This document shows, in pieces, positions 6,768 through 56,394 of a stretch of DNA of 58,313 nucleotides (its first letter is position 1; each line of letters starts with the position of its first letter). The DNA comes from a virus, in the IMG/VR virus record IMGVR_UViG_3300029893_000008, positions 1-58,313 of that record; one strand, given 5' to 3'. The notes beneath the pieces are model-generated. The model ran no database searches and had not been told where the DNA came from. It was given only the letters and a program-made list of their open reading frames with translations. The position numbers were made by a program, and so were the translations under genes.

Positions 6768-7223
6768 ATGAAGATAATAGGAATAGACCTATCTTTAAGT
6801 AATACAGGAATATCATATTTTGAAAATAAAAAATTATGTGATGTATTTTCAATTGATACAAAGAAAATAAAAAAAGACCAATTTTGCAGAATGTTTTACC
6901 TGACCGATAAAATAAAGAATTATATTTTTGAGAAAAATCCAGATATAATTGTTTTTGAATCGGGATTTTATAGATATAATACTTCAACAGAAGTGCTATA
7001 TCGTTTACAGGGAATGCTTTTTTATAATATAAAAGAATATAATTTTATTTTTTATAGTCCTTCTACCATAAAAAAAATTATTACGGGAAAAGGTAATTCC
7101 AAAAAAGAAGAAGTTTATCGGATTATAAAAAATAAATTTCCAGAAATAGAAATAAACAATTTAGATGAAAGTGATGCGATAGCAATTGGATTAACATTTA
7201 TTAAGGACAGGGATATAAAATGA
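6768..7223 (+). CDS. RuvC-like Holliday junction endonuclease
   Basis: 151 residues, with AAGGAAA before the ATG. Signature acidic residues of the RuvC/RNase H fold are present: Asp7 in IGIDLSLSNTG, Glu64 in IIVFESGF, and Asp133/Asp136 in NLDESDAIAIGL. The length matches phage RuvC proteins. It would resolve branched DNA before packaging or during recombination. Its 3' end overlaps the start of the recombinase gene by 4 bases, so the two are likely made together. Confidence 0.85.
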   Translation: MKIIGIDLSLSNTGISYFENKKLCDVFSIDTKKIKKDQFCRMFYLTDKIKNYIFEKNPDIIVFESGFYRYNTSTEVLYRLQGMLFYNIKEYNFIFYSPSTIKKIITGKGNSKKEEVYRIIKNKFPEIEINNLDESDAIAIGLTFIKDRDIK

Positions 7224-8227
7224 GAAATGTTTATAATGAAATGTTTGATAAGGAAATTTGGGAAAAAGTAAATGAAAAAAATAAATCTATTATGAATGAT
7301 TACTTACTTGAATTAAAGCAAAGAAAAAAATCTAATGGTACTATAACCCAATATAAAGCAGATATAAGGGCTTTTTTATGTTATTTATATAAATATGAAA
7401 ACAATATTTATGTTTTAGATGTAAATAAAAAACAATTAAGAGATTTTTCTTTGTTTCTTACTTATAATAATAATGTTTCAAATTCTAGGCATAATCGCTT
7501 TATTTCGGTTGTAAGGTCATTATTATATTTTGCAGAAGAAAATCAAGAAGATTATGGAAATTTTGAAGCAAATGTGGCTAGAAGATTGAAGAGTTTGGAT
7601 TCAAAAGAAAAAAGGCGTGAAATACATTTCCTGAAAGATGAAGATATTTCATATATTATGAAAAAATTGGAAGAAAGAGGGGAATATCAAGAAAGTGCAT
7701 TTTTAGCAATGCTTTATGATAGTGCTGGTAGAAGAAATGAAGTATTACAAGTGAGAAAAGATTCATTTTCATTTGAAAGAAATAATACAAATAAAGTGGT
7801 TGGTAAAAGAAAAAAAGTTTTTTCATTACTTTATTTTGACAGAACAAAAGATGCAGTTAAAAAATGGTTAATTGCCAGAGGAAAGGATGATGTAGATTCT
7901 TTGTGGGCAGTTCCTATACCCCAAACAAGATTTAAAAGACCAGCGAGAGAACATGATGTTTATAGATGGTTTTTAAAAATGAAAGAAATATTAAAAGAAA
8001 GAGATGGAGAATTTACAAATTTTAATGTTCATTCTATTCGACATTCCGCTTTGCAAAATTATTCAGATGGTAGCCATTATGTTTGTAAAAAATTAGGTAT
8101 TTCTGGATTTCCTATTGAAAAATTAAAATTACTTGCAAATCATTCTGATTTAACAACTACCAGCAATTATCTGAAAGATAATTCCATTAATGAAATAGAG
8201 GGGATGTTTGGAATAAAAATTGAATAA
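7220..8227 (+). CDS. tyrosine recombinase (integrase-like)
   Basis: 335 residues. The N-terminal SAM-like core-binding domain (about 20-120) precedes a catalytic domain with Arg171 (SAGRRNEV), a basic beta-turn region (GKRKK, 195-199), His271 and Arg274 (HSIRH), His308 (LANHSD) and nucleophile Tyr317 (TSNYLK). All catalytic residues are present. It lies in the tail module between a RuvC-like gene and the tape measure, an unusual place for an integrase; SPbeta-type phages also keep a second recombinase (YomM) among such genes. It may resolve genome multimers or act in integration. Confidence 0.85.
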   Translation: MRNVYNEMFDKEIWEKVNEKNKSIMNDYLLELKQRKKSNGTITQYKADIRAFLCYLYKYENNIYVLDVNKKQLRDFSLFLTYNNNVSNSRHNRFISVVRSLLYFAEENQEDYGNFEANVARRLKSLDSKEKRREIHFLKDEDISYIMKKLEERGEYQESAFLAMLYDSAGRRNEVLQVRKDSFSFERNNTNKVVGKRKKVFSLLYFDRTKDAVKKWLIARGKDDVDSLWAVPIPQTRFKRPAREHDVYRWFLKMKEILKERDGEFTNFNVHSIRHSALQNYSDGSHYVCKKLGISGFPIEKLKLLANHSDLTTTSNYLKDNSINEIEGMFGIKIE

Positions 8228-19826: not shown

Positions 19827-20897
19827 TTGTTAAAAGCCTATAAATATAGAATATATCCAACAAAAGAACAACAAGAATATTTTGCTAAAGTATTTGGTTG
19901 TGTAAGATTTATATACAACAAAATGCTTAATGATAAAATAGAACATTACAAACAAACAGAAAAAATGCTAAAGAATACACCTGCACAATACAAAAAAGAA
20001 TATTCGTTTCTAAAGGAAGTAGATAGCCTTGCTCTTGCTAATGCACAACTTAACTTAGAAAAGGCATATAAAAACTTTTTTAGAGATAAAAAGGTAGGTT
20101 TCCCAAAGTTCAAGAAAAAAAGAGGGTATCAATCCTATACAACAAATAACCAAAATGGCACAGTAGCACTTATAGATGGGTATCTTAAAATACCAAAGCT
20201 AAAGGCTATGATAAAAGTAAAACAACATAGATTATTTGAAGGTAAAATAAAATCAGTAACAATATCAAAAACGCCTACGGATAAATATTATGCTTCTATA
20301 CTTGTAGAAATTGAAATAGAAAAACTACCTAATGTAGATAAAAAAGTAGGAATAGATTTAGGCTTAAAGGATTTTTTAGTTCTATCGGATGGAACGAAGA
20401 TAGAAAATCCTAAATGGTTAAGACGAACTGAAAAGAAGATAAAAAAGGTACAAAGGGATTTATCAAGGAAACAAAAGTATAGCAAAAACTATGAAAAAAC
20501 AAGGTTACACCTTGCAAAACTACATGAAAAAATAATGAATCAAAGAAAAGATTTTCTACACAAATTATCCTCTAAAATTATAAACGAAAACCAAGTTATA
20601 GTTTTAGAGGACTTGAAGGTAAAGAATATGCAACAAAATAGACATTTAGCAAAAGCAATAAGCGAAGTATCTTGGGCAGAGTTTAGAAGGATGTTAGAAT
20701 ACAAAGTAAATTGGTATGGGAGAGAAATAATAATAGCCCCACAGTCTTATGCTTCAAGTCAAATATGCAGTGAATGTGGATATAAAAATCCTGATGTAAA
20801 GAATTTAGCACTAAGGGAATGGATATGTCCAAATTGCGGTGCTATACATGATAGAGATATAAATGCAAGTAAGAACTTGCTAAAGTTAGCCATGTAA
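19827..20897 (+). CDS. tnpB: TnpB RNA-guided nuclease
   Basis: 356 residues, starting TTG with AAAGGAGGTG upstream. RuvC residues are complete: Asp177 (GIDLGLKD), Glu261 (VLEDLKV) and Asp344 (HDRDINAS). The zinc-finger cysteines CSEC (314-317) and CPNC (334-337) are intact. TnpB uses the omega-RNA from the element's right end to cut DNA next to the TAM and thereby retains the element at its site. The length is slightly shorter than the typical ~400, within the range of compact TnpBs. Confidence 0.92.
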
Positions 20898-25201: not shown

Positions 25202-25765
25202 TTAATTTTTTGTTAATAAGAATTTACTAATATAATTAAAATATAAATCGTACAAAAATTCTTTCAATATCAAATTATTATTTTTATGATTATAATAATA
25301 AATATCAAAATTATAATTATCTAGTTCTGTTTCAGAAGAATGAGATTTTAATTCAGAATCCAGTAAAGTACTTTGACCATCTATTCTTAAAGTAATAATT
25401 GGAATATTTTTATCTTTCCAGAAATTAATTTCATTATAAAATCTGCAATCTGTTACAATTGCCATATCAAAAAAATTATCGAGGGCTTTTATAGTTCTAT
25501 AAACATGCTTTACCCAATAATTTTTATATTTTTTTCTAATAACATCTGTACCAATGTGTTGAAGTAATTTTCTCCCTTCTAAATTCTTTTGACCATCCCA
25601 ATTAAAATATTTTAAAAGATAGAATTTTAATAAGTCTGCATAAGCAATTTTTAGTATTTTTATTTCTGGATTAACATTTTTGGAATATTCAATAATTTTA
25701 TCAGATATAAAATCTTTTCCAACCCCTGCTTTTCCAGATATAAGTAATACAAGTTTTATGGTCAT
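25202..25765 (-). CDS. deoxynucleoside monophosphate kinase
   Basis: 187 residues from the ATG at 25765, which has GGAG 6 bases upstream. The P-loop GKAGVGKD is at residues ~10-17, followed by the phage dNMP kinase blocks HIGTDVIRKKY (template/lid region) and IVTDCRFYNE (Walker B region). It phosphorylates dNMPs to dNDPs with ATP. Together with the reductase, dUTPase and ThyX it completes the local dNTP supply. It follows the replication genes in the same direction. Confidence 0.85.
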   Translation of the reverse strand: MTIKLVLLISGKAGVGKDFISDKIIEYSKNVNPEIKILKIAYADLLKFYLLKYFNWDGQKNLEGRKLLQHIGTDVIRKKYKNYWVKHVYRTIKALDNFFDMAIVTDCRFYNEINFWKDKNIPIITLRIDGQSTLLDSELKSHSSETELDNYNFDIYYYNHKNNNLILKEFLYDLYFNYISKFLLTKN

Positions 25766-26137: not shown

Positions 26138-28803
26138 TCATTATCTCCTATATATCTATCAAATGAATTTTCTATTCTTTCATAATTAGAAAGCCACCAC
26201 TCATCTTGCTCTGTTTCAATATATTGATTATTTTTATATACATAAGCCTTTCTTTTTTCAAAGTTTTTTGCAAAAATTATATCGCCATTAACCAATGGTT
26301 GTGATTCAAATAATTTTTTATTAACTTTTACAGTAATTCTTTTTCCATTATTTAGAGAATATAAATCAATTCGTGGAGTATATCTTAAATCAACATTTTC
26401 GACAATAGTTATTCTTTTATCTAATTCTTCAAATAATGTATAAACCATTCCTAAATTTTCTTTTTGAAAAATTATATTTTGAAAAATAGGTATTCTGGTG
26501 TCTTTTGTATATTTTTCAAAATTAATTAATTCTTTATATCTTTTTATTCTAGTTTCTTCTTTGTGATTTTTAGAATATTTAAATTTTCCTTCTGTAAATT
26601 CTTTGAAAATTTTATGAAGTTTTCCATTTTTTCCAAATGTTTTAAAAAAGTCAAGATAAATCAAAATTTCTAATTGCTTATTTGTGATTTTTAATTCTGA
26701 TAAATCTATTAATAAATCTAAAAAACTATTGTATTTTTTGGTATATAATTTATATAATTCCTTTGCTACCTGTGGTGTAATAAATTTTATTCCAGCCAAT
26801 CCCATATATATTACACTTTCATTTTTATCATAAGAATAGAAATATTTAGATTTACCAAACTCTATATTTTTAATTTTTAAATTTTTTAAATTTTCAGGTA
26901 TTGTCGAATATTCATTATCTTCATCTTCATTCTTTTCCTCTAATAATTTCTCTTTCTGTATAGCAATTTCATCTTCTATTTCTTTTATTTCCCTAATATA
27001 CTTTTCGGCTTCTTCCACATAAAAGTCATAATTTACATCATATTCCTCAAATGGAATATTTTTGTCGTAATCGTTCAAAATTCTTACATAATTTGAAACA
27101 TAAACACCTATTTGATTTCCGTTTTCTCTATTTATTTTAACTAATTTCCCACCAGCATTAGAGATATAACACCTGTTTGTTTTTTGAAGAGGTATGTCAT
27201 TGCCTTCTTCTGTTCTATACACAAAATCAAATTTATCACCAGCCTTTTGAGAAAAACAAAAATTAAGTATATCTCTTTCCTTTTTAATAGTATCTATTAC
27301 AGGAATGTCTTTCATGTAATAGAAAAATAGTGCATCAGAAACCACTGGAAAACTGTATGCTTTATTGATTTCAATATCTGTCATAAATCTACCTTTTTCT
27401 TTTACTTCACCATCTACCTTTAATGTAATATAATTGTTGACATCTGTTCTAACATATAACTTATATTCCGTAAATTCTAGGGATAATTTAGTCTTGCTTT
27501 CCCATTCTTTACATATTCGATAATAATCATCTATCTTATCCTTATTAACATAAGAAACAATGCCATCGGTATTTGCTGAAATAACTGGTATTTCGTTCAG
27601 ATGTAATTCTTCAATTAGCATTAGTAAAAATAATTGACCATTTACAGTAACCTTAATTAATCCTTTTGGGTCGTAAAGATAAAATAATTCACTTCCCATT
27701 TTTCCAAATATAGAATTAATGGAAATTTTTAAAGCATCTGCTTTTAGTTTATCTTTTTCTTTTTTTGCTTTCACTCTTTCTTCTGTCATCTTCCTTAAAA
27801 TATCTAAAAATGTTTCTGAAAGATGAGAAGGATAGACCTTTTCATTCAATATAATATTAGGATAATAACTTGTAACATCTGCATCAATGATTTTATAGTT
27901 TTCAGATGAAACAAACTTTGCTGGATTATCTTCTGAATGTAATCCACCTATGCCCAATTCATAAGTAATTCCAGCAAAAGTTATTTTTTCTTTATATTTG
28001 TATTTATTTTCTTTTACTAATATTGTTTCTCTTAATTTTAATAAAAGATTATTTAATTTTTCTGTTTTGAATTTTACTTTATCGCTAATACATTCTGAAA
28101 GCCAAAAAAAATTTACATCCTTGTTTGTTTTTTTATGGATGTTAAAATCTGGCTCTTGTTTTTTATAGTAATCTTCCAATATAACATTTCCAATTTTGCT
28201 ATCACTTGCATTCAATAAATCCACGTTAAATAATTCTGATAGTTTTATCCTTAATTCAATTTGTGGATATAATTTTTTATACAATTCCCTTGTAATTAAA
28301 ACATCATTAATATTATATTGAATAATTGTTTCTATTTCTTCCTTTTTAATAGGCTTATCATAGGGTAATGGAAGGTCTTGAATCTTGTGCCATTTTAGAG
28401 AAACAGATACAGCCTTAAGTGAAATTCCTAATTTATCAAATGCTGGAATTTTCATTAAATCAATATCTTTCCATACAAGTTTTCTGTTAGGACTAAAAAG
28501 AACATTTCTGTTACCTGATATAATATTTTGAGAAAAATTATAAATATGTAAATTAATATCTTTGCTTTTGTTATATGTTATAACTTCATATAAAATTTCT
28601 CTATCATAAAAAAGATTATTATACCCAATAAGATAATTTACTTTATTTTCTATAAAATCTATCAATTCATCTCTTTGGTCTATACCATATTGCCAAGATA
28701 TAGAGAATGTATAAATCTCATTTTCATCTTCAATGTTAATAAAAGTAAAGCATAAGAAATTTTTAAATACTTCTACATCATAGCAATAATCTTTTTTATC
28801 CAT
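26134..28803 (-). CDS. family B DNA polymerase with 3'-5' exonuclease
   Basis: 889 residues. Exonuclease motifs: Asp9-x-Glu11 (YDVEVF), Asn62/Asp67 (NNLFYD) and Tyr163-x3-Asp167 (YNIND). Polymerase motifs: A DVTSYYPNI (309-317), B with Lys359 to NSIFG (363-367), and C at 411-414. Motif C reads NTDG instead of the DTDS common in this family; the central Asp413 is kept. A long charged insertion (EDEIAIQKEKLLEEKNEDED region, about 620-650) follows the palm. This is the replicative polymerase of the phage. It overlaps the Cas4-like nuclease gene by 8 bases. Confidence 0.92.
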   Translation of the reverse strand: MDKKDYCYDVEVFKNFLCFTFINIEDENEIYTFSISWQYGIDQRDELIDFIENKVNYLIGYNNLFYDREILYEVITYNKSKDINLHIYNFSQNIISGNRNVLFSPNRKLVWKDIDLMKIPAFDKLGISLKAVSVSLKWHKIQDLPLPYDKPIKKEEIETIIQYNINDVLITRELYKKLYPQIELRIKLSELFNVDLLNASDSKIGNVILEDYYKKQEPDFNIHKKTNKDVNFFWLSECISDKVKFKTEKLNNLLLKLRETILVKENKYKYKEKITFAGITYELGIGGLHSEDNPAKFVSSENYKIIDADVTSYYPNIILNEKVYPSHLSETFLDILRKMTEERVKAKKEKDKLKADALKISINSIFGKMGSELFYLYDPKGLIKVTVNGQLFLLMLIEELHLNEIPVISANTDGIVSYVNKDKIDDYYRICKEWESKTKLSLEFTEYKLYVRTDVNNYITLKVDGEVKEKGRFMTDIEINKAYSFPVVSDALFFYYMKDIPVIDTIKKERDILNFCFSQKAGDKFDFVYRTEEGNDIPLQKTNRCYISNAGGKLVKINRENGNQIGVYVSNYVRILNDYDKNIPFEEYDVNYDFYVEEAEKYIREIKEIEDEIAIQKEKLLEEKNEDEDNEYSTIPENLKNLKIKNIEFGKSKYFYSYDKNESVIYMGLAGIKFITPQVAKELYKLYTKKYNSFLDLLIDLSELKITNKQLEILIYLDFFKTFGKNGKLHKIFKEFTEGKFKYSKNHKEETRIKRYKELINFEKYTKDTRIPIFQNIIFQKENLGMVYTLFEELDKRITIVENVDLRYTPRIDLYSLNNGKRITVKVNKKLFESQPLVNGDIIFAKNFEKRKAYVYKNNQYIETEQDEWWLSNYERIENSFDRYIGDNE

Positions 28804-45062: not shown

Positions 45063-45878
45063 CTATTTTGTATTATTAATTTTTTCATCATAATTATCCA
45101 AACCAGATACAATACCAGTCCCAGAACATCTAGGACATGGTAAATAAGTAAAATATTCTTCTATAACTTTCTTCTTTTCTTCCAAGAAAGAATTTACTTT
45201 TTCAGCCAAATCAAATATGTCATTTCCTTCTATGGTTGGAATTTTAATTTCTAAAGAAGCCTGATTTCTGTTGTTTGAATAAATAGTTATAACATTACTT
45301 CTCTCATTAACAAATAAATTTTTAATATTTTTTTTATATAATAAATAAATATAATTTTTAAAATCACTTAATATACTGGTAGGGATAAGCCTACATCTAT
45401 TATAATATTCTAAACCAGCAGGGATATTTTTGGGGGTAGCCAAAATCTCATAATCAAAAAATATGTTTTCTGGATAGGGTTTATATTCCCCAATAAAAAC
45501 AAAATCAATTTCTTCTTTTGACCTTATTTCTTCTGTTTCAATTTTCATATTATAACTTTGAACTATTAAATTATTTTCCTCACAAAATTTAATCAAATCT
45601 TCTTTTGATAAAAATTCTTTTGGAAAATATGGATAAGAATTTTCTTTTAATTTATAGGCAATATTCTTTAATATCTCTTTTATTTGATAAATTTCTTTGG
45701 GTAGATTTCTAGTAATGATTGGTCTTTTAAAGAAATAAGTAGAATTTATATAAAGAAAATATTCTTCATTGTTTTCATCTACAATAACAAAATTACCACT
45801 TTTTAATTCTGAAAACCAAGAATAATATTGTCCCTCAAAAAATATAGTATATAAAGTACTATTATTCATTTTTTTCAT
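45063..45878 (-). CDS. hypothetical protein with C-terminal CxxCxGxG knuckle
   Basis: 271 residues. No enzyme motif in the body; the C-terminus holds CPRCSGTGIV, half of a DnaJ-type zinc finger. It starts inside the end of the RNA ligase gene (overlap 17 bases), so coupling suggests a related role, for example RNA binding. Two ATGs lie close together at the start; which one is used is unclear. Confidence 0.55.
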   Translation of the reverse strand: MKKMNNSTLYTIFFEGQYYSWFSELKSGNFVIVDENNEEYFLYINSTYFFKRPIITRNLPKEIYQIKEILKNIAYKLKENSYPYFPKEFLSKEDLIKFCEENNLIVQSYNMKIETEEIRSKEEIDFVFIGEYKPYPENIFFDYEILATPKNIPAGLEYYNRCRLIPTSILSDFKNYIYLLYKKNIKNLFVNERSNVITIYSNNRNQASLEIKIPTIEGNDIFDLAEKVNSFLEEKKKVIEEYFTYLPCPRCSGTGIVSGLDNYDEKINNTK

Positions 45879-46749
45879 AATCCTTATTTAGATATTCTTT
45901 ATACCATTCTGGAATACCTTTTGTAATTCCTTTATGTATTTTACCCCAAAAGTATTTAAAAAGCAAGTCCTTAATTGTTTCATTTTCCTCATTATAAACA
46001 TCTCTTGAAACTTCTTGCAATAACAGGGGAATATCTTTTGGTGTAAATGTTAACAAACCCAATTCTCTCAAGTGTTGAACAGCCTTTTCCCATCTTGCTT
46101 CTGTTCTAAATTGTTCTGCAATAATATTAACAACCTCTTTCTCTCCGCTTGCCCATTCTGTTTTGTGGACTTCTATAAATTCATCTCTAACCAGTTTTCC
46201 CATTGCTATATCGTTTGCTTGTGTAACTATATTGTAATTTTTTATAACAATGCCCTCTATTTGTCCACCCAAGATAGATTCTCCATCAAGGAATTTTCTC
46301 AATTCATCTATGCTATTTACTTCACCTTCAAAATAGAGGGGAACAGTTTCAAAATCTAATCGCTCAAATTCCATCTTTTTATCTATTGGAGATAAAAAAG
46401 TCCTATCTTCTAATTCAATGTCAAACCCAATAAAATTATGTTTTGGTGTTCTCTGATATTGCAATACATTATGTTTATTATTTGAAAGCACTTCCCCTCG
46501 ATATGTCCAATTTTCATTTAATTTATCTTTAATAGTAAGTATATAATCTATCGCTTTCCTAAATAACTTATCTCCCCCGTAAGCAGGGACAATAGCACCC
46601 CTACTCTTAAATATAATCTCATCTCCCGATTTTTTAAATGAAAACTGACTTCCATCTATTTTTTCTTCTACTATAATTTTTCCCTTTAACAAATCTTTCA
46701 TTAGAAAGTGGTCATATCGTACTACTTTTGGGTAACTTTTTATTTCCAT
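45862..46749 (-). CDS. RNA ligase, T4 Rnl2-like
   Basis: 295 residues with GGAG upstream. Nucleotidyltransferase motifs in order: I EEKIDGSQ (Lys30), Ia/II FKSRGAIV, III YRGEVLSN, IIIa NFIGFDIE, IV EGIVIK and V-like AMGKLVRDEF. It seals nicks in RNA or RNA-containing duplexes by adenylation. Phages use such ligases to repair tRNAs cleaved by host anticodon nucleases; this genome carries two tRNAs and a Ro60-like protein. Confidence 0.88.
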   Translation of the reverse strand: MEIKSYPKVVRYDHFLMKDLLKGKIIVEEKIDGSQFSFKKSGDEIIFKSRGAIVPAYGGDKLFRKAIDYILTIKDKLNENWTYRGEVLSNNKHNVLQYQRTPKHNFIGFDIELEDRTFLSPIDKKMEFERLDFETVPLYFEGEVNSIDELRKFLDGESILGGQIEGIVIKNYNIVTQANDIAMGKLVRDEFIEVHKTEWASGEKEVVNIIAEQFRTEARWEKAVQHLRELGLLTFTPKDIPLLLQEVSRDVYNEENETIKDLLFKYFWGKIHKGITKGIPEWYKEYLNKDYEKNE

Positions 46750-47222: not shown

Positions 47223-48563
47223 TTAATCTCCCAAAATTTTGATAGTTTCTTTTCCAAATATATCTACTACTTTAATTGCAATTATACCACATTTTTCTTT
47301 TGGAAATCCCTTATTTGAAACGATGGATAATACTTTTTTCTTTTTATCTGAAAAAATAATATCATCATAAGTAAAAAATTCACCATTATAATTGTAATCT
47401 ATTCCCCAAAATTCTATATATTCAAAGGGGTTTTCTTCAAAATAACTCTTAATATAATCTATATCTTTTTTAGAAACATTTTCATTAATCTTTGGAATAA
47501 ATTTATCTATTTTTATAAAAACTAAATTATCTTTTGCTTCTATACTACATTCCAAATAATGATTTTCTAAAATAGTGTCTAATAAATCTTCATTAATATA
47601 TGTATCTATATTTGTAGTATATTGATACATTCTCTTTCTTGTAACTTTAAAAGATGATATACTAGAATCACTTCCAATCCATCTTCTTTTTAATTTCTGT
47701 GCAACGGCTAAAGTTGTACCACTCCCACAAAATAAATCAGCAACAATCATGCTGGGCGTGCTACACGCCTGAACAATTTTTTCAATTAACTCATAAGGTT
47801 TTTCAGTATCGTACAGTCTCTCAGTCATTGAGTTGAATTTTATGTCCCATACATCGCTAGGCACCTTACCTTTCGGCATCTCTTTGCCGACCTGATAGCC
47901 TTTTGTGTATCGCCATTTGGTCATTCCACTTTCATAAGGTATCAAAATTTCATCTGCAAAAAAGTGATGTGATTTTGACATCGAATACCAAAAAATCGTA
48001 TCGTGTTTTCGAGCGAAACGTTCCTTTCCTCTAGCGCCTTGGTCATATGACCAAATAATCTCATTTTGAAAGTTATCTTTCCCAAAGATTTCATCCATCA
48101 GCATCTTGACATAATGCCCGATATGCCAATCCAAATGGACAAAAATACTGTCTATTTCTTTCAATAACTTGTGCATTAAGAATAATCTTTCATACATAAA
48201 TTGTAAATATTCATCAACTTTAAACTTATCAATATAAGAATTTACTGAAACAACTTTATCTCCCATCTTTATCTTTTCATAGAATTTATTACCAGTATTA
48301 TAAGGGGGGTCTATATATATCAAATCAATATTATCAACATACTTTTTTAAATTAATCAAAACATCTCTATTCTCTGAAAAAAATAGAAAATTCAAATTTG
48401 AATCATTATCTTTTTTTCTTAAAATTTCATGTTTTTTTAATTTATTATTAGGTGAAAAGTCAAAATTTGTCTTATTTCCATAAATATCATATTTACCTTT
48501 CCAAACTAATTCACATTCTCTATTATATAAAGGATGAGGATTATCTCTATCATAAACATTCAT
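47223..48563 (-). CDS. site-specific DNA methyltransferase (beta class, Mod-like)
   Basis: 446 residues from the ATG at 48563 (AAAGGGTG upstream). Catalytic motif IV IDPPYNTG precedes motif I LFCGSGTT, the beta-class order typical of type III Mod and related N6-adenine methylases. A further domain follows motif I. The central part (roughly 47750-48180 in the window) is much richer in GC than both ends. No restriction subunit is adjacent. Confidence 0.85.
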   Translation of the reverse strand: MNVYDRDNPHPLYNRECELVWKGKYDIYGNKTNFDFSPNNKLKKHEILRKKDNDSNLNFLFFSENRDVLINLKKYVDNIDLIYIDPPYNTGNKFYEKIKMGDKVVSVNSYIDKFKVDEYLQFMYERLFLMHKLLKEIDSIFVHLDWHIGHYVKMLMDEIFGKDNFQNEIIWSYDQGARGKERFARKHDTIFWYSMSKSHHFFADEILIPYESGMTKWRYTKGYQVGKEMPKGKVPSDVWDIKFNSMTERLYDTEKPYELIEKIVQACSTPSMIVADLFCGSGTTLAVAQKLKRRWIGSDSSISSFKVTRKRMYQYTTNIDTYINEDLLDTILENHYLECSIEAKDNLVFIKIDKFIPKINENVSKKDIDYIKSYFEENPFEYIEFWGIDYNYNGEFFTYDDIIFSDKKKKVLSIVSNKGFPKEKCGIIAIKVVDIFGKETIKILGD

Positions 48564-48568
48564 AAAAA

Positions 48569-48841
48569 TCACCCTTTATAATCTTCCTTCAAGAAAGAAT
48601 AAAGTTTCTTTAAATCTTCTTTCGTGAAAATCATATCCCAAAATACATATTCTTTTCCAAATAAAATAGCCCAAATCAATTTAATCTTATCCTTTAATAA
48701 ATTATAAAAAATTTTTTGTTGATATGAAGAATCTAAATAATGAGATAAATAATATAATTTTGCAGGAGTATCTCTTTCTAATTTCAAAAGAGAACATCCA
48801 CAAGAACAAGATAATAAAATAGTATTTTTATCTTCTCCCAT
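48569..48841 (-). CDS. hypothetical 90-residue protein
   Basis: Contains CSCGCS near the N-terminus and hydrophobic/aromatic helices. Its stop lies just before the methyltransferase start. A metal-binding or membrane-associated protein is possible; I do not recognise a family. Confidence 0.55.
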   Translation of the reverse strand: MGEDKNTILLSCSCGCSLLKLERDTPAKLYYLSHYLDSSYQQKIFYNLLKDKIKLIWAILFGKEYVFWDMIFTKEDLKKLYSFLKEDYKG

Positions 48842-48853
48842 TTTATAATTTCC

Positions 48854-49042
48854 TTATTCTAAATTAGTCAATTCAATCAAAAAATTTCTTAATTCTGTAA
48901 TCAATTTTACAATTGTGTTTGCATCCAAATCCATTAAGGTTTCCTTACCTTCTTTATCTGTGAACCAGATACCAGAAGTCATTCTATCTATTCTGATTTT
49001 AATATTGCAATCTTCACTTTTACAAGAACATTTGACTGTCAT
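48854..49042 (-). CDS. 62-residue Cys-rich N-terminus protein
   Basis: Begins MTVKCSCKSEDCNIKI (three Cys) followed by FTDKEGKETLMDLDANTIVK and a C-terminal helix. Starts 2 bases after the preceding methyltransferase. Small regulator or accessory protein; role unknown. Confidence 0.6.
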   Translation of the reverse strand: MTVKCSCKSEDCNIKIRIDRMTSGIWFTDKEGKETLMDLDANTIVKLITELRNFLIELTNLE

Positions 49043-49044
49043 TT

Positions 49045-49836
49045 TTAATCTCCATTATTGATTCTTTTCTGTGCCAATTCAAAATAATTCTGATTTATTT
49101 CAAATCCTATAAATTTTCTATTTAATAGTTTTGCAACTTTAACTGTAGTACCACTTCCTAGAAATGGGTCTAAAACTACATCATTTACATTACTCCAAGA
49201 TAAAATATGCTTTTCAACTAATTCTTCTGGAAATATGGCTGGGTGCTTATATGCAATTTTATCTTTTGTACTGCGCATATATCCAGTATTTATCCTCCAA
49301 ACATTATCTAAAATCCTGTATTCTTTTCCTTTTTCATATTTGAAAATAGAAGTATTTCCATTTTTCTTTCTATATGTACTGATTTCATTATTTTTTTTCT
49401 TCCATACAGTTTTTTGTCTTAGCAAATTTACTGTTCTGGGTTTTCCTTTACTTAAAACAAACATATACTCAAATTGCTGATAATACCTATTTCTAGGTGG
49501 AAAAGGATAAGAATTTTTATAATAAATCATTGTATCATGAACATTAAAACCTATTTCTTTAAAAAAAATACACTGTTTAAAAGAAGTCAAACTTTCAGAA
49601 CCATTTTTATCATAAGAATCACTAACTACCCAAACTAAAACACTACCCCTTTTTAATATTCTAAAAATTTCTTTTGCTATTTCTTCAAAATTAAAAGAAT
49701 AAAAACCATCATAATCTCTTAATCCGTCATAAGGGGGACTGGTTAAAACCATATCAATAGACTCATCATCTATTAACTTCATCCCTTCCAAACAATCCAT
49801 ATTATAAATCTTATTTATTTCTAATTTATTCATCAT
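49045..49836 (-). CDS. DNA methyltransferase, beta class (SPPY motif)
   Basis: 263 residues. Catalytic motif TSPPYDGLRDYDG precedes VLDPFLGSGTT. SPPY is typical of N4-cytosine methylases, but some N6-adenine enzymes also have it, so the base modified is not certain. NKIYNMDCLEGMKLI near the start is the usual opening. No cognate endonuclease is adjacent. Confidence 0.85.
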   Translation of the reverse strand: MMNKLEINKIYNMDCLEGMKLIDDESIDMVLTSPPYDGLRDYDGFYSFNFEEIAKEIFRILKRGSVLVWVVSDSYDKNGSESLTSFKQCIFFKEIGFNVHDTMIYYKNSYPFPPRNRYYQQFEYMFVLSKGKPRTVNLLRQKTVWKKKNNEISTYRKKNGNTSIFKYEKGKEYRILDNVWRINTGYMRSTKDKIAYKHPAIFPEELVEKHILSWSNVNDVVLDPFLGSGTTVKVAKLLNRKFIGFEINQNYFELAQKRINNGD

Positions 49837-49844
49837 TTTACCAC

Positions 49845-50330
49845 TTAAATATTTTTCTTAATATCCTTAATACTTACTTTAATTTCTTTATTACATACAG
49901 GGCAGTGAATTGATTCATTATAATTAGAAAATTTATTAATAATTTTTTGAAACCGCTCTTCTTCTGTAACATAAACAATTTCTCCACCCTTCTTACAAAG
50001 AACACCAATATTATCTAGCATATAAATAAAAAAATATAATTGCTCTTTCATATTAGGATTTTCTTCTATAAAAGCAAATACATTTTCATCTTTTTCTCTG
50101 TAAAAATCATTGTGTTCTTCTTCTAAATGAAAGTCTAACAAATGAATCAACTTATTTTTACACCTATATTTACAATAAGATTCATAAATCCTTTCAAAAG
50201 ATTCTTCTACTTTATCATCTAATACTAAATCTAATATACTTAAAGTTTCTACATCATCTGTAAAAATAGCATAAATTTTATCTTCTTGTGTGTTTTCAAA
50301 ATCTTCAAAATCAAAATTTATTTCTTCCAT
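49845..50330 (-). CDS. hypothetical acidic protein with zinc knuckle
   Basis: About 161 residues from the ATG at 50330 (an alternative ATG at 50345 overlaps the upstream gene). Acidic N-terminus (EEINFDFEDFENTQED), scattered Cys and His (HLLDFHLEEEH), and CPVCNKEIKVS near the end. Could be a metal-binding regulator. Family not recognised. Confidence 0.55.
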   Translation of the reverse strand: MEEINFDFEDFENTQEDKIYAIFTDDVETLSILDLVLDDKVEESFERIYESYCKYRCKNKLIHLLDFHLEEEHNDFYREKDENVFAFIEENPNMKEQLYFFIYMLDNIGVLCKKGGEIVYVTEEERFQKIINKFSNYNESIHCPVCNKEIKVSIKDIKKNI

Positions 50331-50331
50331 T

Positions 50332-51111
50332 TTATATAATCCCATACCATTCTATATAATCCCAATCTACAAATCTCTTTCTCATTACATTGATAGCATC
50401 TTCATTTGAATCAATCAAAATAAATTTATATTTTGTTGTACCACCTAAATCTAAACATGCCTGACCAGTAGTACCACTTCCAGCGAAGGCATCTAAAACT
50501 ACATCACCTTCTGGACAGGAAACCTTAATAATCCGTTTAATTATTTCAACTGGCTTTTGAGTAGGATAATTTACCCTTTCTTTTCCAGTAGTGTGAACAA
50601 TTGTATTCCACCAAACATCTGTATAAGTTTTACCACGCTCTCTTTTTTCTGGTGTAACTAAATTGGGTGCTAGATAAGGTAAACGCTCAACATTTTCATA
50701 ATTAAAATAATATTTTTTATTATTTTTTACATAGAACAAAATATTATCATGTTTTGCTGACCATTTCTTTTTACTCCTGCCCCCATAATCATACGCCCAA
50801 ATAATTTCATTCATAAAATTTTCAATTCCAAAAATTTCATCTATCATCACTTTGCAATAATGCACATATCTGTAATCAATGTGAAAATAGAAAGAACCTG
50901 TATCTTTTAAAATTCTATATAATTCTTCTACTCTTGCTCTCAAAAAATCAAGATATAAATCCAAACTTTGAAACTTATCCTTATAAGAATTTCCATGAAT
51001 TGATTGAATTTTACCTGTATTAAATGGGGGGTCTATATAAATTAAGTCAACAGATTCACTTTTTAGTGTTTTTAAAATGGAAAGATTTTCTCCAAAATAA
51101 ATATAATTCAT
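50332..51111 (-). CDS. DNA adenine methyltransferase, beta class
   Basis: 259 residues from the ATG at 51111 (GGAG upstream). Motif IV IDPPFNTG and motif I LDAFAGSGTT, with the conserved NEIIWAYDYGGRSK and HDNILFY blocks shared with the enzyme at 47223-48563. It is shorter than that paralogue, lacking its C-terminal extension. Third beta-class orphan methylase in the window. Confidence 0.87.
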   Translation of the reverse strand: MNYIYFGENLSILKTLKSESVDLIYIDPPFNTGKIQSIHGNSYKDKFQSLDLYLDFLRARVEELYRILKDTGSFYFHIDYRYVHYCKVMIDEIFGIENFMNEIIWAYDYGGRSKKKWSAKHDNILFYVKNNKKYYFNYENVERLPYLAPNLVTPEKRERGKTYTDVWWNTIVHTTGKERVNYPTQKPVEIIKRIIKVSCPEGDVVLDAFAGSGTTGQACLDLGGTTKYKFILIDSNEDAINVMRKRFVDWDYIEWYGII

Positions 51112-51305
51112 TCTCTTCTTCTCCATACTGCCCTTTTAATTGAACCATCATCCCGATATTCTACATCGTGCCACTTCTTTTTATTATAACTTATATCTAA
51201 ATTAGAAGTAAGAAATCCCATAATCAAAATAAGAAATAAGAAAAAAGAAACTCCACATCCTAAAATTGTAACTGTATCAAATAAAAATTGAGAAAAAGAA
51301 TACAT
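51108..51305 (-). CDS. 65-residue single-span membrane protein
   Basis: AAAGGAG before the ATG. One hydrophobic segment (ILGCGVSFFLFLILIMGFL) followed by a charged tail with Lys/Arg clusters. First gene after the promoter at 51348-51376, leading the methyltransferase cluster. Unknown function. Confidence 0.65.
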   Translation of the reverse strand: MYSFSQFLFDTVTILGCGVSFFLFLILIMGFLTSNLDISYNKKKWHDVEYRDDGSIKRAVWRRRE

Positions 51306-51347: not shown

Positions 51348-51376
51348 ATTATATCATAATTTTTATTGAATGTCAA
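51348..51376 (-). promoter_or_regulatory. promoter of the methyltransferase cluster
   Basis: TTGACA (51376-51371), 17-base spacer, TATAAT (51353-51348). Lies directly behind the terminator of the Ro60-like gene. Confidence 0.87.
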
Positions 51377-51380
51377 TAGA

Positions 51381-51413
51381 AAAAAGGTAGTTATTTTAGG
51401 TAACTACCTTTTT
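51381..51413 (-). terminator. terminator of the Ro60-like gene
   Basis: On the minus strand a perfect 13-bp stem (core AAGGTAGTTA/TAACTACCTT) with a 7-base loop ends in a T-run. Only 4 bases separate it from the next -35 box. Confidence 0.9.
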
Positions 51414-52947: not shown

Positions 52948-53016
52948 AGGCTTCCTTAATAAAAATTAGATTATATCATCTAAATCCTATTTTTTATTTT
53001 TTGCTGTTGGAAGCCT
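52948..53016 (-). ncRNA. leader hairpin B (candidate structured RNA)
   Basis: AGGCTTCC (53016-53009) pairs with GGAAGCCT (52955-52948), 8 bp closing a 53-base interior. The interior starts AACAGCAAAA and contains TGATATAA within a local 6-bp hairpin (TTAGAT/ATCTAA). It shares layout and loop motifs with hairpin A, while the stem differs by three compensated pairs. Lies between hairpin A and the Ro60-like start codon. Confidence 0.6.
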
Positions 53017-53025
53017 TTTTTGAAC

Positions 53026-53087
53026 AGGTTACTATATTTATATCATTTTCAAAATAAATATTAGTAAAATTTTGCTGTAAGTAACCT
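53026..53087 (-). ncRNA. leader hairpin A (candidate structured RNA)
   Basis: AGGTTACT (53087-53080) pairs with AGTAACCT (53033-53026), 8 bp closing a 46-base interior that begins TACAGCAAAA and contains TGATATAA. It begins about 3 bases after the predicted transcription start, so the transcript opens with this structure. A competing small hairpin (GTAAG-GTTA-CTTAC) overlaps its 5' arm. Confidence 0.6.
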
Positions 53088-53096
53088 TACATTTCT

Positions 53097-53125
53097 ATTA
53101 TAGTATTATTTTTTACATTTGTCAA
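53097..53125 (-). promoter_or_regulatory. promoter of the Ro60-like transcript
   Basis: TTGACA (53125-53120), 17-base spacer, TATAAT (53102-53097). The predicted start near 53090 gives a ~170-base leader, far longer than the 25-40 bases of other promoters here. Confidence 0.87.
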
Positions 53126-53164: not shown

Positions 53165-54484
53165 TTACGGATTCCAGCCATTCATTTGTGCAAGCATAAC
53201 CCAAAAGGCTTTGGCTATTCTAATTTTACCAGCACTGACACTTCCCAAATGTCCACCATCTACTTCTGTTGTATAGTGCGGACAAATGGCAGGAATGCTC
53301 AAACCGTCATCGGGATAATTTTCGCTTCTAGTCCCAAAAGTGTAAGGTACTCCATCCCTGTTATCGTAGCAAGGATTACCTTGTGGGTCATGGCTTAAAA
53401 TATCAGCAACATCAAATAAAACTTTATTGTTTTGAATTGCATATTCCCTCATTTGATTATTGAACTGTTCACTAATGGGTGTACCAATTCCTCTTGACAA
53501 AGAAGTAGTCCAATAAATTACTTTTTTATTGGGGTTATTAGATTCCCACTGTTCTAATTGATTAATATTTTGGAAATAATTCATAATCCAATTGTTACTA
53601 CCATCAACTTGTAAATAAGAAACTTGAAAAGATACAATGTCATATTGACCTTTTATCTCTTCTATCCTATTCAGAAAACAACCAAACATCTGATTAATGC
53701 TGTTTGTGCAATTTACACCTATATTATCCCAATACTGATAGGTTACATTATTTGAGGGATAAAAACCATTCCAATATAAAATAGCAGGGTCAACAGAGTA
53801 AGAGGGGACGCCCGTGTGATTCCACCTTTTACAATGATTTAAGGCATTATTATAAGGTACATTCATACAGTTAATTCCCTCATAAATATTACCACCCACA
53901 GATTGGTCAACAAAATAAAATCTAGTCTGAAAAGCAAGATTTAAATATTGTTGTGGAATTTGTTCAAACAAATCCACCGAATTATGATTAATAATAATTG
54001 GTAAATTTTGAGGTGGTGGGTTAGTAGGCGTAGAAATGGTGGGGGTAGATGTAAATTGAGGAAGTGGGGTTTCTGTTACCGTACTTATTGGTAAAAGTGT
54101 TTGGGTTACTGTTACGGTAAATGTTGGGGTGTTTGTAATTGTAGGGCTTAATGTTTGGGTTTGGGTTGGACTAGGTATTTCTGTTATATATGGAATGGTT
54201 TCTGTTACCATGCTTGTAGGCGTTATTTCACCATCACCATAAGCAAAACATTGTACTTTCCAAACAGTTTCATTATTGCTGTTATATGAATAAAATGATT
54301 GAACTATGTTACCATCACAAATCATTTCCCAATTAGCACTATTTTCAAGAGTAGAGGTTACGGGTGGGGGATAGGGATATTGGGCGTGAACATTGTAATT
54401 TGAACCTTTATCTAAATTACCAAAAGCAATTAATAAAAATAATGGAATAAAAAAACAAAAAATAAAAAATAGTATTTTTTTCAA
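53165..54484 (-). CDS. secreted SGNH-like hydrolase with Thr/Pro linker
   Basis: 439 residues starting at TTG (54484) with AAAGGAG upstream. A signal peptide (KKILFFIFCFFIPLFLLIAF) leads to a small domain, then a long Thr/Pro/Ser linker (about 88-160; TPTFTVTVTQT etc.), then a domain with FVDQSVGGNIYEG near its start and a DGGHLGSVSAGK ending that gives the Asp-x-x-His pair of SGNH/GDSL esterases. The N-terminal Ser block is atypical. Such linkers are common in secreted Chloroflexota and some Gram-positive proteins. GC is higher than neighbours; a host-derived lysogenic-conversion gene is likely. Confidence 0.7.
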   Translation of the reverse strand: MKKILFFIFCFFIPLFLLIAFGNLDKGSNYNVHAQYPYPPPVTSTLENSANWEMICDGNIVQSFYSYNSNNETVWKVQCFAYGDGEITPTSMVTETIPYITEIPSPTQTQTLSPTITNTPTFTVTVTQTLLPISTVTETPLPQFTSTPTISTPTNPPPQNLPIIINHNSVDLFEQIPQQYLNLAFQTRFYFVDQSVGGNIYEGINCMNVPYNNALNHCKRWNHTGVPSYSVDPAILYWNGFYPSNNVTYQYWDNIGVNCTNSINQMFGCFLNRIEEIKGQYDIVSFQVSYLQVDGSNNWIMNYFQNINQLEQWESNNPNKKVIYWTTSLSRGIGTPISEQFNNQMREYAIQNNKVLFDVADILSHDPQGNPCYDNRDGVPYTFGTRSENYPDDGLSIPAICPHYTTEVDGGHLGSVSAGKIRIAKAFWVMLAQMNGWNP

Positions 54485-55575: not shown

Positions 55576-56394
55576 TTATACCTCAAAAGCATTTGCTAAC
55601 AATTCATCACGAATTTGAGCATATCGCATTGTTGTATTAATGTTACTGTGTCCCATTGCTTTTTGAATAACATTAATGTTAATTTCAGCCGACAATAACC
55701 GAGTAGCAAAAGTCCTTCTTAATGTATGTGGGGTAACATGATTGCTGTCCACATTTGCTTTATTACATAAAGATTTAATTTTTAATCGGATTGCTTCTGT
55801 GGTATATTTTCCCCTCTGTGGGGAAAAGAAAAGATATTCTGATACAGGTTTACGAATTTTAATATAATCTAAAAATTTTTCATAAGTACTTTTATTCATA
55901 AAAACATATCTTTCCTTGTTGCCTTTACCACGAATTTTAATTTTATTACCTTCAATATCGCTTATCTTAATATTAACCAATTCATCTCTTCTCAAACCAG
56001 CAAAAGTTAATAAAGAGAAAATCAAAATATCTTCTTTATTCTTTTTATTGACTTCTAAAATCTTTTCAATTTCTTCTTCTGACAAAACTTTAAAAATCTT
56101 TTTTGCTTCTTTGAGTGGTTTAATTTGAGAGAAAGGGTTTTCTGAAACAAGATTATTTTCAAGTAAAAATTGAAAACAAGAAGATAAATATCTGCAATAA
56201 GAATTAACCGATGAATGAGATAAAGTATCAGATAAAACAGATTGAAAATGATAAGCATCTTTTAAGGAAAAATTGTTAACATCTTTATTATTGGCATTAC
56301 AATATTCCCCAAAGATTTCTAATGCTTTTTTGTAAGAACGATAAGTGTTAAGACTTTTTGTTTTTTGTGTATATTCCAGAAATTGATTGAACAT
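55576..56394 (-). CDS. tyrosine recombinase, XerC/D-like integrase
   Basis: 272 residues with AAGGAG upstream. N-terminal core-binding domain (1-95) and catalytic domain with Arg135 (GLRRDEL), a Lys in GKGNKER (157-162), His223 and Arg226 (HTLRR), His249 (GHSN) and Tyr258 (MRYAQI). All catalytic residues are present. The compact size resembles Xer proteins. It is the better candidate for the phage integrase; no attP could be identified here. Its promoter carries a palindrome. Confidence 0.9.
   Translation of the reverse strand: MFNQFLEYTQKTKSLNTYRSYKKALEIFGEYCNANNKDVNNFSLKDAYHFQSVLSDTLSHSSVNSYCRYLSSCFQFLLENNLVSENPFSQIKPLKEAKKIFKVLSEEEIEKILEVNKKNKEDILIFSLLTFAGLRRDELVNIKISDIEGNKIKIRGKGNKERYVFMNKSTYEKFLDYIKIRKPVSEYLFFSPQRGKYTTEAIRLKIKSLCNKANVDSNHVTPHTLRRTFATRLLSAEININVIQKAMGHSNINTTMRYAQIRDELLANAFEV

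Follow-up and report, generated by a model that had tools for sequence, protein, structure and literature searches.

What are the two hairpins that precede a Ro60-like gene in a virus genome, and do they act in the message or apart from it? The IMG/VR virus record IMGVR_UViG_3300029893_000008 was analyzed over its whole length of 58,313 nucleotides (the window). On the minus strand it carries a gene of the DUF2828/DUF7788 class, whose product has a predicted Ro60 fold, and the leader of this gene contains two hairpin units of one plan. An earlier note, made from the sequence alone, had described these hairpins. We report here that the units are members of a widespread, apparently undescribed family of RNAs encoded beside DUF2828 genes in phages and bacteria, and that they probably serve as partners of the Ro60-like protein.

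Two hairpin units and their covariation

Direct reading of the sequence confirmed both hairpins at the positions given earlier (Table 1). Each unit consists of an 8-bp terminal helix, one nucleotide, the motif ACAGCAA, a variable loop, the 3' arm and a G; the loop of unit 2 contains an inner hairpin. The stems of the two units differ at three of eight positions, and all three differences are compensated on the other arm, as had been claimed. Likewise, both loops open with N-ACAGCAAAA. The two units are the sole such pair in the window (8-bp stems with at least 3 G+C, no more than 150 nt apart, with a common 9-mer after the 5' arm; 97 qualifying positions). Compared to shuffled sequences, the fold z-score is moderate for unit 1 (−2.3) and reaches −4.7 for unit 2 and −4.6 for both units jointly. 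The perfect promoter ends about 10 nt ahead of unit 1, which places this unit at the predicted transcription start, as proposed before. Over all units collected in this work, seven promoters end 4-14 nt ahead of a unit, where 0.7 are expected.

A BLASTN search with the window leader found no real relatives. The closest relative is contig BPGB01000006.1 (L098), which stems from a metagenome-assembled genome named Woesearchaeota and encodes a DUF2828 protein 80% identical to that of the window, with the same neighbouring genes. Both units and both ACAGCAA copies are kept in its leader, the loops differ, and a compensated exchange is seen in the stem of unit 1 (TTACT/AGTAA to TTGCT/AGCAA). The −35 element and the position of the promoter are retained as well. 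This Woesearchaeota-labelled contig is closely related to the phage and may be a mis-binned virus.

Twelve regions from related viral contigs, each located directly 3' of DUF2828, were aligned with no use of base pairing. In ten of them all seven pairs are Watson-Crick pairs, two are without a unit, and double changes occur at four of the seven pairs among these orthologous regions. Pair counts from units picked for good pairing were set aside; the structure rests on this alignment, on the comparison with L098 and on the fixed-register control described below. A lack of structure in related leaders, which the earlier note had named as speaking against its view, was not found: related loci keep the stems with compensated changes. 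The units are thus a conserved and covarying RNA element.

One claim did not stand. The sequence TGATATAA had been regarded as a shared loop element; it is present 21 times in the window, compared to 10.5 expected occurrences, and is missing from both homologous units of L098. It was therefore rejected as part of the RNA element and is regarded as incidental. One copy forms part of the extended −10 at 51348.

Table 1. Position of the leader units, their promoter and the DUF2828/DUF7788 gene in the window.
Feature	Coordinates	Strand	Details
Promoter TTGACA-17-TATAAT	53097..53125	−	12/12 consensus positions; predicted start ~53090
Unit 1	53026..53087	−	5' arm AGGTTACT 53087-53080; linker 53079; ACAGCAA 53078-53072; 3' arm AGTAACCT 53033-53026; then GU
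Unit 2	52948..53016	−	5' arm AGGCTTCC 53016-53009; linker 53008; ACAGCAA 53007-53001; 3' arm GGAAGCCT 52955-52948; then G
DUF2828/DUF7788 gene, 490 aa	51449..52921	−	Pfam; predicted Ro60-like fold; vWA domain with DxSxS motif
Terminator-like hairpin, 15 pairs, after the DUF2828 gene	51381..51413		Consensus scan, reported on + strand; sequence

An RNA family beside DUF2828 genes

A scan with NACAGCAAA detected hairpins built on this plan next to the DUF2828 genes of phages whose hosts are unrelated (Campylobacter, Bacillus, Listeria, Staphylococcus, Enterococcus and Escherichia). In Campylobacter phage F370 two units are located directly ahead of the gene, as in the window. A locus search with the window protein alone as query found no related loci; using an alignment of 13 homologues, 160 further DUF2828 loci were collected (80 viral and 80 genome loci).

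Pairing was then determined in a fixed register, with the helix at −9 to −2, followed by one nucleotide and the motif. On the gene strand, 64 of 179 occurrences of ACAGCAAA are preceded by a perfect 8-bp stem; on the other strand this holds for 0 of 30, and 167 permuted 8-mers gave 2.5%. Since ACAGCAAT (54/156) and ACAGCAAC (25/86) behave like ACAGCAAA in the same test, the core of the motif is ACAGCAA. The 3' arm is followed by G in 96% of 257 units; the unit search favoured G slightly as a tie-break, which is too weak to yield this value. Two to six units are present in 70 of 114 loci.

After removal of three units misaligned by MAFFT, 30 units were used to build a covariance model (R1). In the whole window only units 1 and 2 score with R1 (50.5 bits, E 4.5e-10, and 45.1 bits, E 1e-8; both belong to the training set). 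Over the 160 loci, from which the training set was drawn in part, 218 matches were obtained (E<=0.05), all of them on the gene strand and distributed over 111 loci (43 of the 80 viral and 68 of the 80 genome loci). A covariance-model search of DUF2828-carrying genomes, proposed earlier as a check and carried out here with the 30-unit R1, thus found the family beside the gene and with a total strand bias. R1 matches ten of the eleven named phages that were not used for training. Searching 21 whole virus records (E<0.01) yielded 46 matches; their distance to DUF2828 is no more than 500 nt for 26 of them, 2 kb for 33 and 12 kb for 44. The IMG/VR record of L047 (G004) contains units at 56535-58322, about 45 kb from the DUF2828 gene of the same virus.

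Bacterial genomes gave a similar picture. Only four of 299 Bacillota genomes carry DUF2828, and R1 matches three genomes, all of them carriers; the fourth carrier is matched when filters are switched off, and units are found upstream of the gene in all four. In the two R1-positive carriers outside the training set, the match ends about 105 nt ahead of the first DUF2828 match. Four other Bacillota genomes encode a canonical TROVE Ro60 gene, and none of these has a unit within 6 kb; one of them has a YrlA-like RNA. The units are thus associated with the DUF2828 gene class, and the basal element seems to follow the branch of the protein, although the numbers are small.

The loops are variable in content. 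Of the 114 units that reach 75 nt, 28 have a tRNA T-arm in the loop; over all 257 units the count is 31, compared to 0.2 in shuffled sequences. In L169, L112 and L148 a near-complete tRNA body replaces the loop.

Neither an ACAGCAA element nor a DUF2828-specific RNA is described in the open-access papers found, which do not include Chen et al. (2014), so that a prior description is possible. In Listeria phage CKA15, highly transcribed non-coding RNAs up to 2 kb upstream of the DUF2828 gene have been proposed as Y RNAs (PMC12282133); the published account gives no motif for them. We found units of the family at ~25287-25554 of cka15, in an unannotated gap adjoining the DUF2828 gene.

The Ro60-like protein and the probable role of the units

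By sequence the window gene belongs to DUF2828/DUF7788 and not to Pfam TROVE. Its product matches an RNA-binding protein in PHROG (E 1.5e-110), and the sequence search linking it to Ro60/TROVE is weak by itself (best E 0.043). The AlphaFold2 model (pLDDT 89.5) was searched with Foldseek, and ranks 1-11 are all Ro60/TROVE (E 2e-8 to 8e-7, TM up to 0.61). Predicted structures of DUF2828/DUF7788 proteins from giant viruses likewise match. The DUF2828 protein is therefore predicted to have a Ro60 fold. Relatives of the gene are present in 681 records of the phage collection.

We favour, with a probability of about three in four, the reading that the units are released by processing and act in trans as Y-RNA-like partners of the Ro60-like protein; binding, processing and a role in phage RNA metabolism are inferred. 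Two structured RNAs of about 60-70 nt would be made from their own strong promoter, in one transcript with the Ro60-like gene, and would probably be cut out of it. The 8-bp helix, together with the single-stranded ACAGCAA at a fixed distance, would be the docking site for the DUF2828 protein, comparable to the basal stem of Y RNA on Ro60. The loop would then be an exchangeable module, a tRNA mimic in many relatives and a short AU-rich hairpin in the window, and would decide what is recruited to, or excluded from, the Ro60-like ring. With such short AU-rich hairpins as loops, the window units would serve the protein ring as a simple cap or gate.

The earlier note had left it open whether the hairpins are RNA partners of the protein or an autoregulatory leader. 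This pair of proposals is supported, as the structure is kept, the units accompany DUF2828 and are absent beside canonical TROVE genes, and the protein has a predicted Ro60 fold. A cis-acting leader, in which binding of the protein to the hairpins of its mRNA represses translation or makes the message more stable, would fit the window well: both units are located between promoter and start codon, and unit 2 ends 26 nt before the ATG. It would also fit the 121 of 232 units with known gene position that end no more than 300 nt upstream of the gene. However, 27 of the 232 lie more than 1 kb upstream and 23 downstream of the gene, some are found 3-11 kb away in tRNA-rich regions, and a cis leader has no need of inserted tRNA-like bodies. 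Units located downstream of the gene, or kilobases away in tRNA clusters, speak for an RNA that acts in trans rather than for a leader acting in cis alone, as do the multiple copies per locus, and we regard the leader as an unlikely explanation. The two roles are compatible, and autoregulation may exist in addition.

Several observations weigh against the units being trans-acting partners. About 30% of the 160 DUF2828 loci are without a unit at the R1 threshold, and in KVP40, which carries DUF2828, R1 finds no unit. An intrinsic terminator is absent after unit 1 and after unit 2, so release of the units needs processing. The two window units have no tRNA-like domain, unlike the well-studied bacterial Y RNAs. 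Transcription of the cka15 region 25287-25554 is not stated explicitly in PMC12282133, and the most abundant cka15 RNA (26236-26727) contains no unit and was rejected as a family member. The latter RNA (3237-3728 in L182) lies in the same tRNA cluster and is a different, unexplained RNA.

That the RNAs are tRNA decoys or accessories of tRNA repair, which distract host anticodon nucleases in partnership with the tRNAs and the RNA ligase of the phage, is quite improbable. The tRNA-like bodies of many relatives would suit such a role, the window encodes an RNA ligase and two tRNAs, and a decoy role has been proposed for YrlA (PMC7790460); the window units, however, have no tRNA-like part. A feature at the DNA level (tandem promoters or repeats with incidental hairpins), suggested by the over-represented TGATATAA and its likeness to an extended −10, is hardly credible, because L098 does not conserve this sequence, all R1 matches at the DUF2828 loci lie on the gene strand, and the covariation of the stems already refutes it for the hairpins.

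If the partner reading holds, DUF2828, a gene common in phages and of unknown function, gains a likely RNA partner. As the recognition element would be precise and open to mutation, the biochemistry of the protein becomes testable.

The surroundings of the gene show further features. At 51348-51413 a strong terminator-like hairpin is immediately followed by a perfect extended −10 promoter ahead of the next gene. Three DNA methyltransferase-like genes are encoded directly 3' of the Ro60-like gene (47223-51126, minus strand), two of them N6/N4 methylases according to Pfam and the third judged by sequence. The product of the RNA ligase gene (45862-46749, minus strand; PF09414, E 2.7e-17) could cooperate with the Ro60-like protein in RNA repair. 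On the other side, the gene at 53165-54484 (minus strand) adjoins the leader and encodes a protein whose N-terminus is hydrophobic and whose linker is rich in Thr and Pro; L098 encodes a homologue with a diverged linker and has a second gene for a Thr/Pro-rich protein ahead of the leader. Further away, the phage carries an IS605 OrfB/TnpB-like gene (19827-20897, plus strand), and two tyrosine recombinase (integrase) genes are present in this one record (7220-8227, plus strand, and 55576-56394, minus strand).

Comparison with Class I RNAs and Y RNAs

The sole Rfam family matching unit 1 is RF01414 (Dicty_Class_I_RNA), with 28.8 bits and E 3.6e-4 in a search with 81 bases; this score is below the family cut-off of 41.5 bits, and the best score among relatives is 32.5. 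The alignment is full-length and includes CUUACAGCAA and the final CUG. Further RF01414 matches, to both units of L098 and to two in Aeromonas phage LAh_9, coincide with R1 units or lie no more than 3 nt from them. In 23 records, 14 of 19 RF01414 matches (E<=0.05), including the first seven, overlap R1 units. Used alone as IMG/VR probe, the 14-mer CTTACAGCAATTAA was not diagnostic (stem and G in 6/120 compared to 1/120 in the reversed control; DUF2828 in 2 compared to 0).

Class I RNAs start with AAG, end with CUGU and are about 60 nt long, with a short stem showing compensatory changes, a motif beside the 5' arm and a variable middle; their authors found none beyond the dictyostelids, and the partner in Dictyostelium, Rnp1A (CIBP), is an RRM protein (PMC7919456). 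Unit 1 shares the length, the covarying terminal stem, CUUACAGCAA beside the 5' arm, both ends and a variable A-rich loop; at the position of the 11-nt Class I motif, unit 1 has CUUACAGCAA and unit 2 CCAACAGCAA. In contrast, Class I RNAs are eukaryotic and have the promoter element DUSE, whereas the window is a phage record with a sigma-70-type promoter. The resemblance of the DUF2828-associated RNAs to Class I RNA is well supported. Somewhat short of an even chance, we tentatively suggest that both form one family; Class I RNAs would then not be an invention of social amoebae and would, in the manner of Y RNAs, have a Ro60-fold DUF2828/DUF7788 protein as partner. Common ancestry, if the match is due to it, would provide an explanation and a candidate partner for this abundant class of developmental RNAs, which has no known relatives.

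Bacterial and phage Y RNAs are already known as a kind (PMC8394870, PMC12282133), and for those of mycobacteriophages Chen et al. (2014) is cited in PMC12282133. Like the units, which stand beside a gene for a predicted Ro60 fold, YrlA (RF02553) is encoded beside a Ro60-fold protein, its partner Rsr, a Ro60 with TROVE domain, and in both RNAs a basal stem joins the 5' and 3' ends. Many relatives of the units share the tRNA-like body, some in the arm order of YrlA: in L013 and L014 the order T-arm, acceptor-like arm, D-arm is found within an ACAGCAA-type stem, with matches of the YrlA model nested inside the units, and the basal stem of YrlA is not conserved there. RF02553 matches of the relatives (34-48 bits, below the cut-off) arise from the tRNA-like body, and RF02553, the YrlA model with the Ro-binding stem, has no match in the window. 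The 8-bp helix and ACAGCAA of the units are in turn absent from the RF02553 consensus, and the protein partner differs, TROVE for YrlA and, putatively, DUF2828/DUF7788 for the units. The TROVE Ro60 of Thermus phage phiLo (PDB 9l5y) has the same overall fold as the model of the window protein (Foldseek E 1.9e-7); it is a member of the TROVE family and matches the DUF2828 profile weakly (E 0.066). Taken together, this suggests a Ro60 world with two protein branches, TROVE and DUF2828, which have separate RNA basal elements and shared tRNA-mimic bodies.
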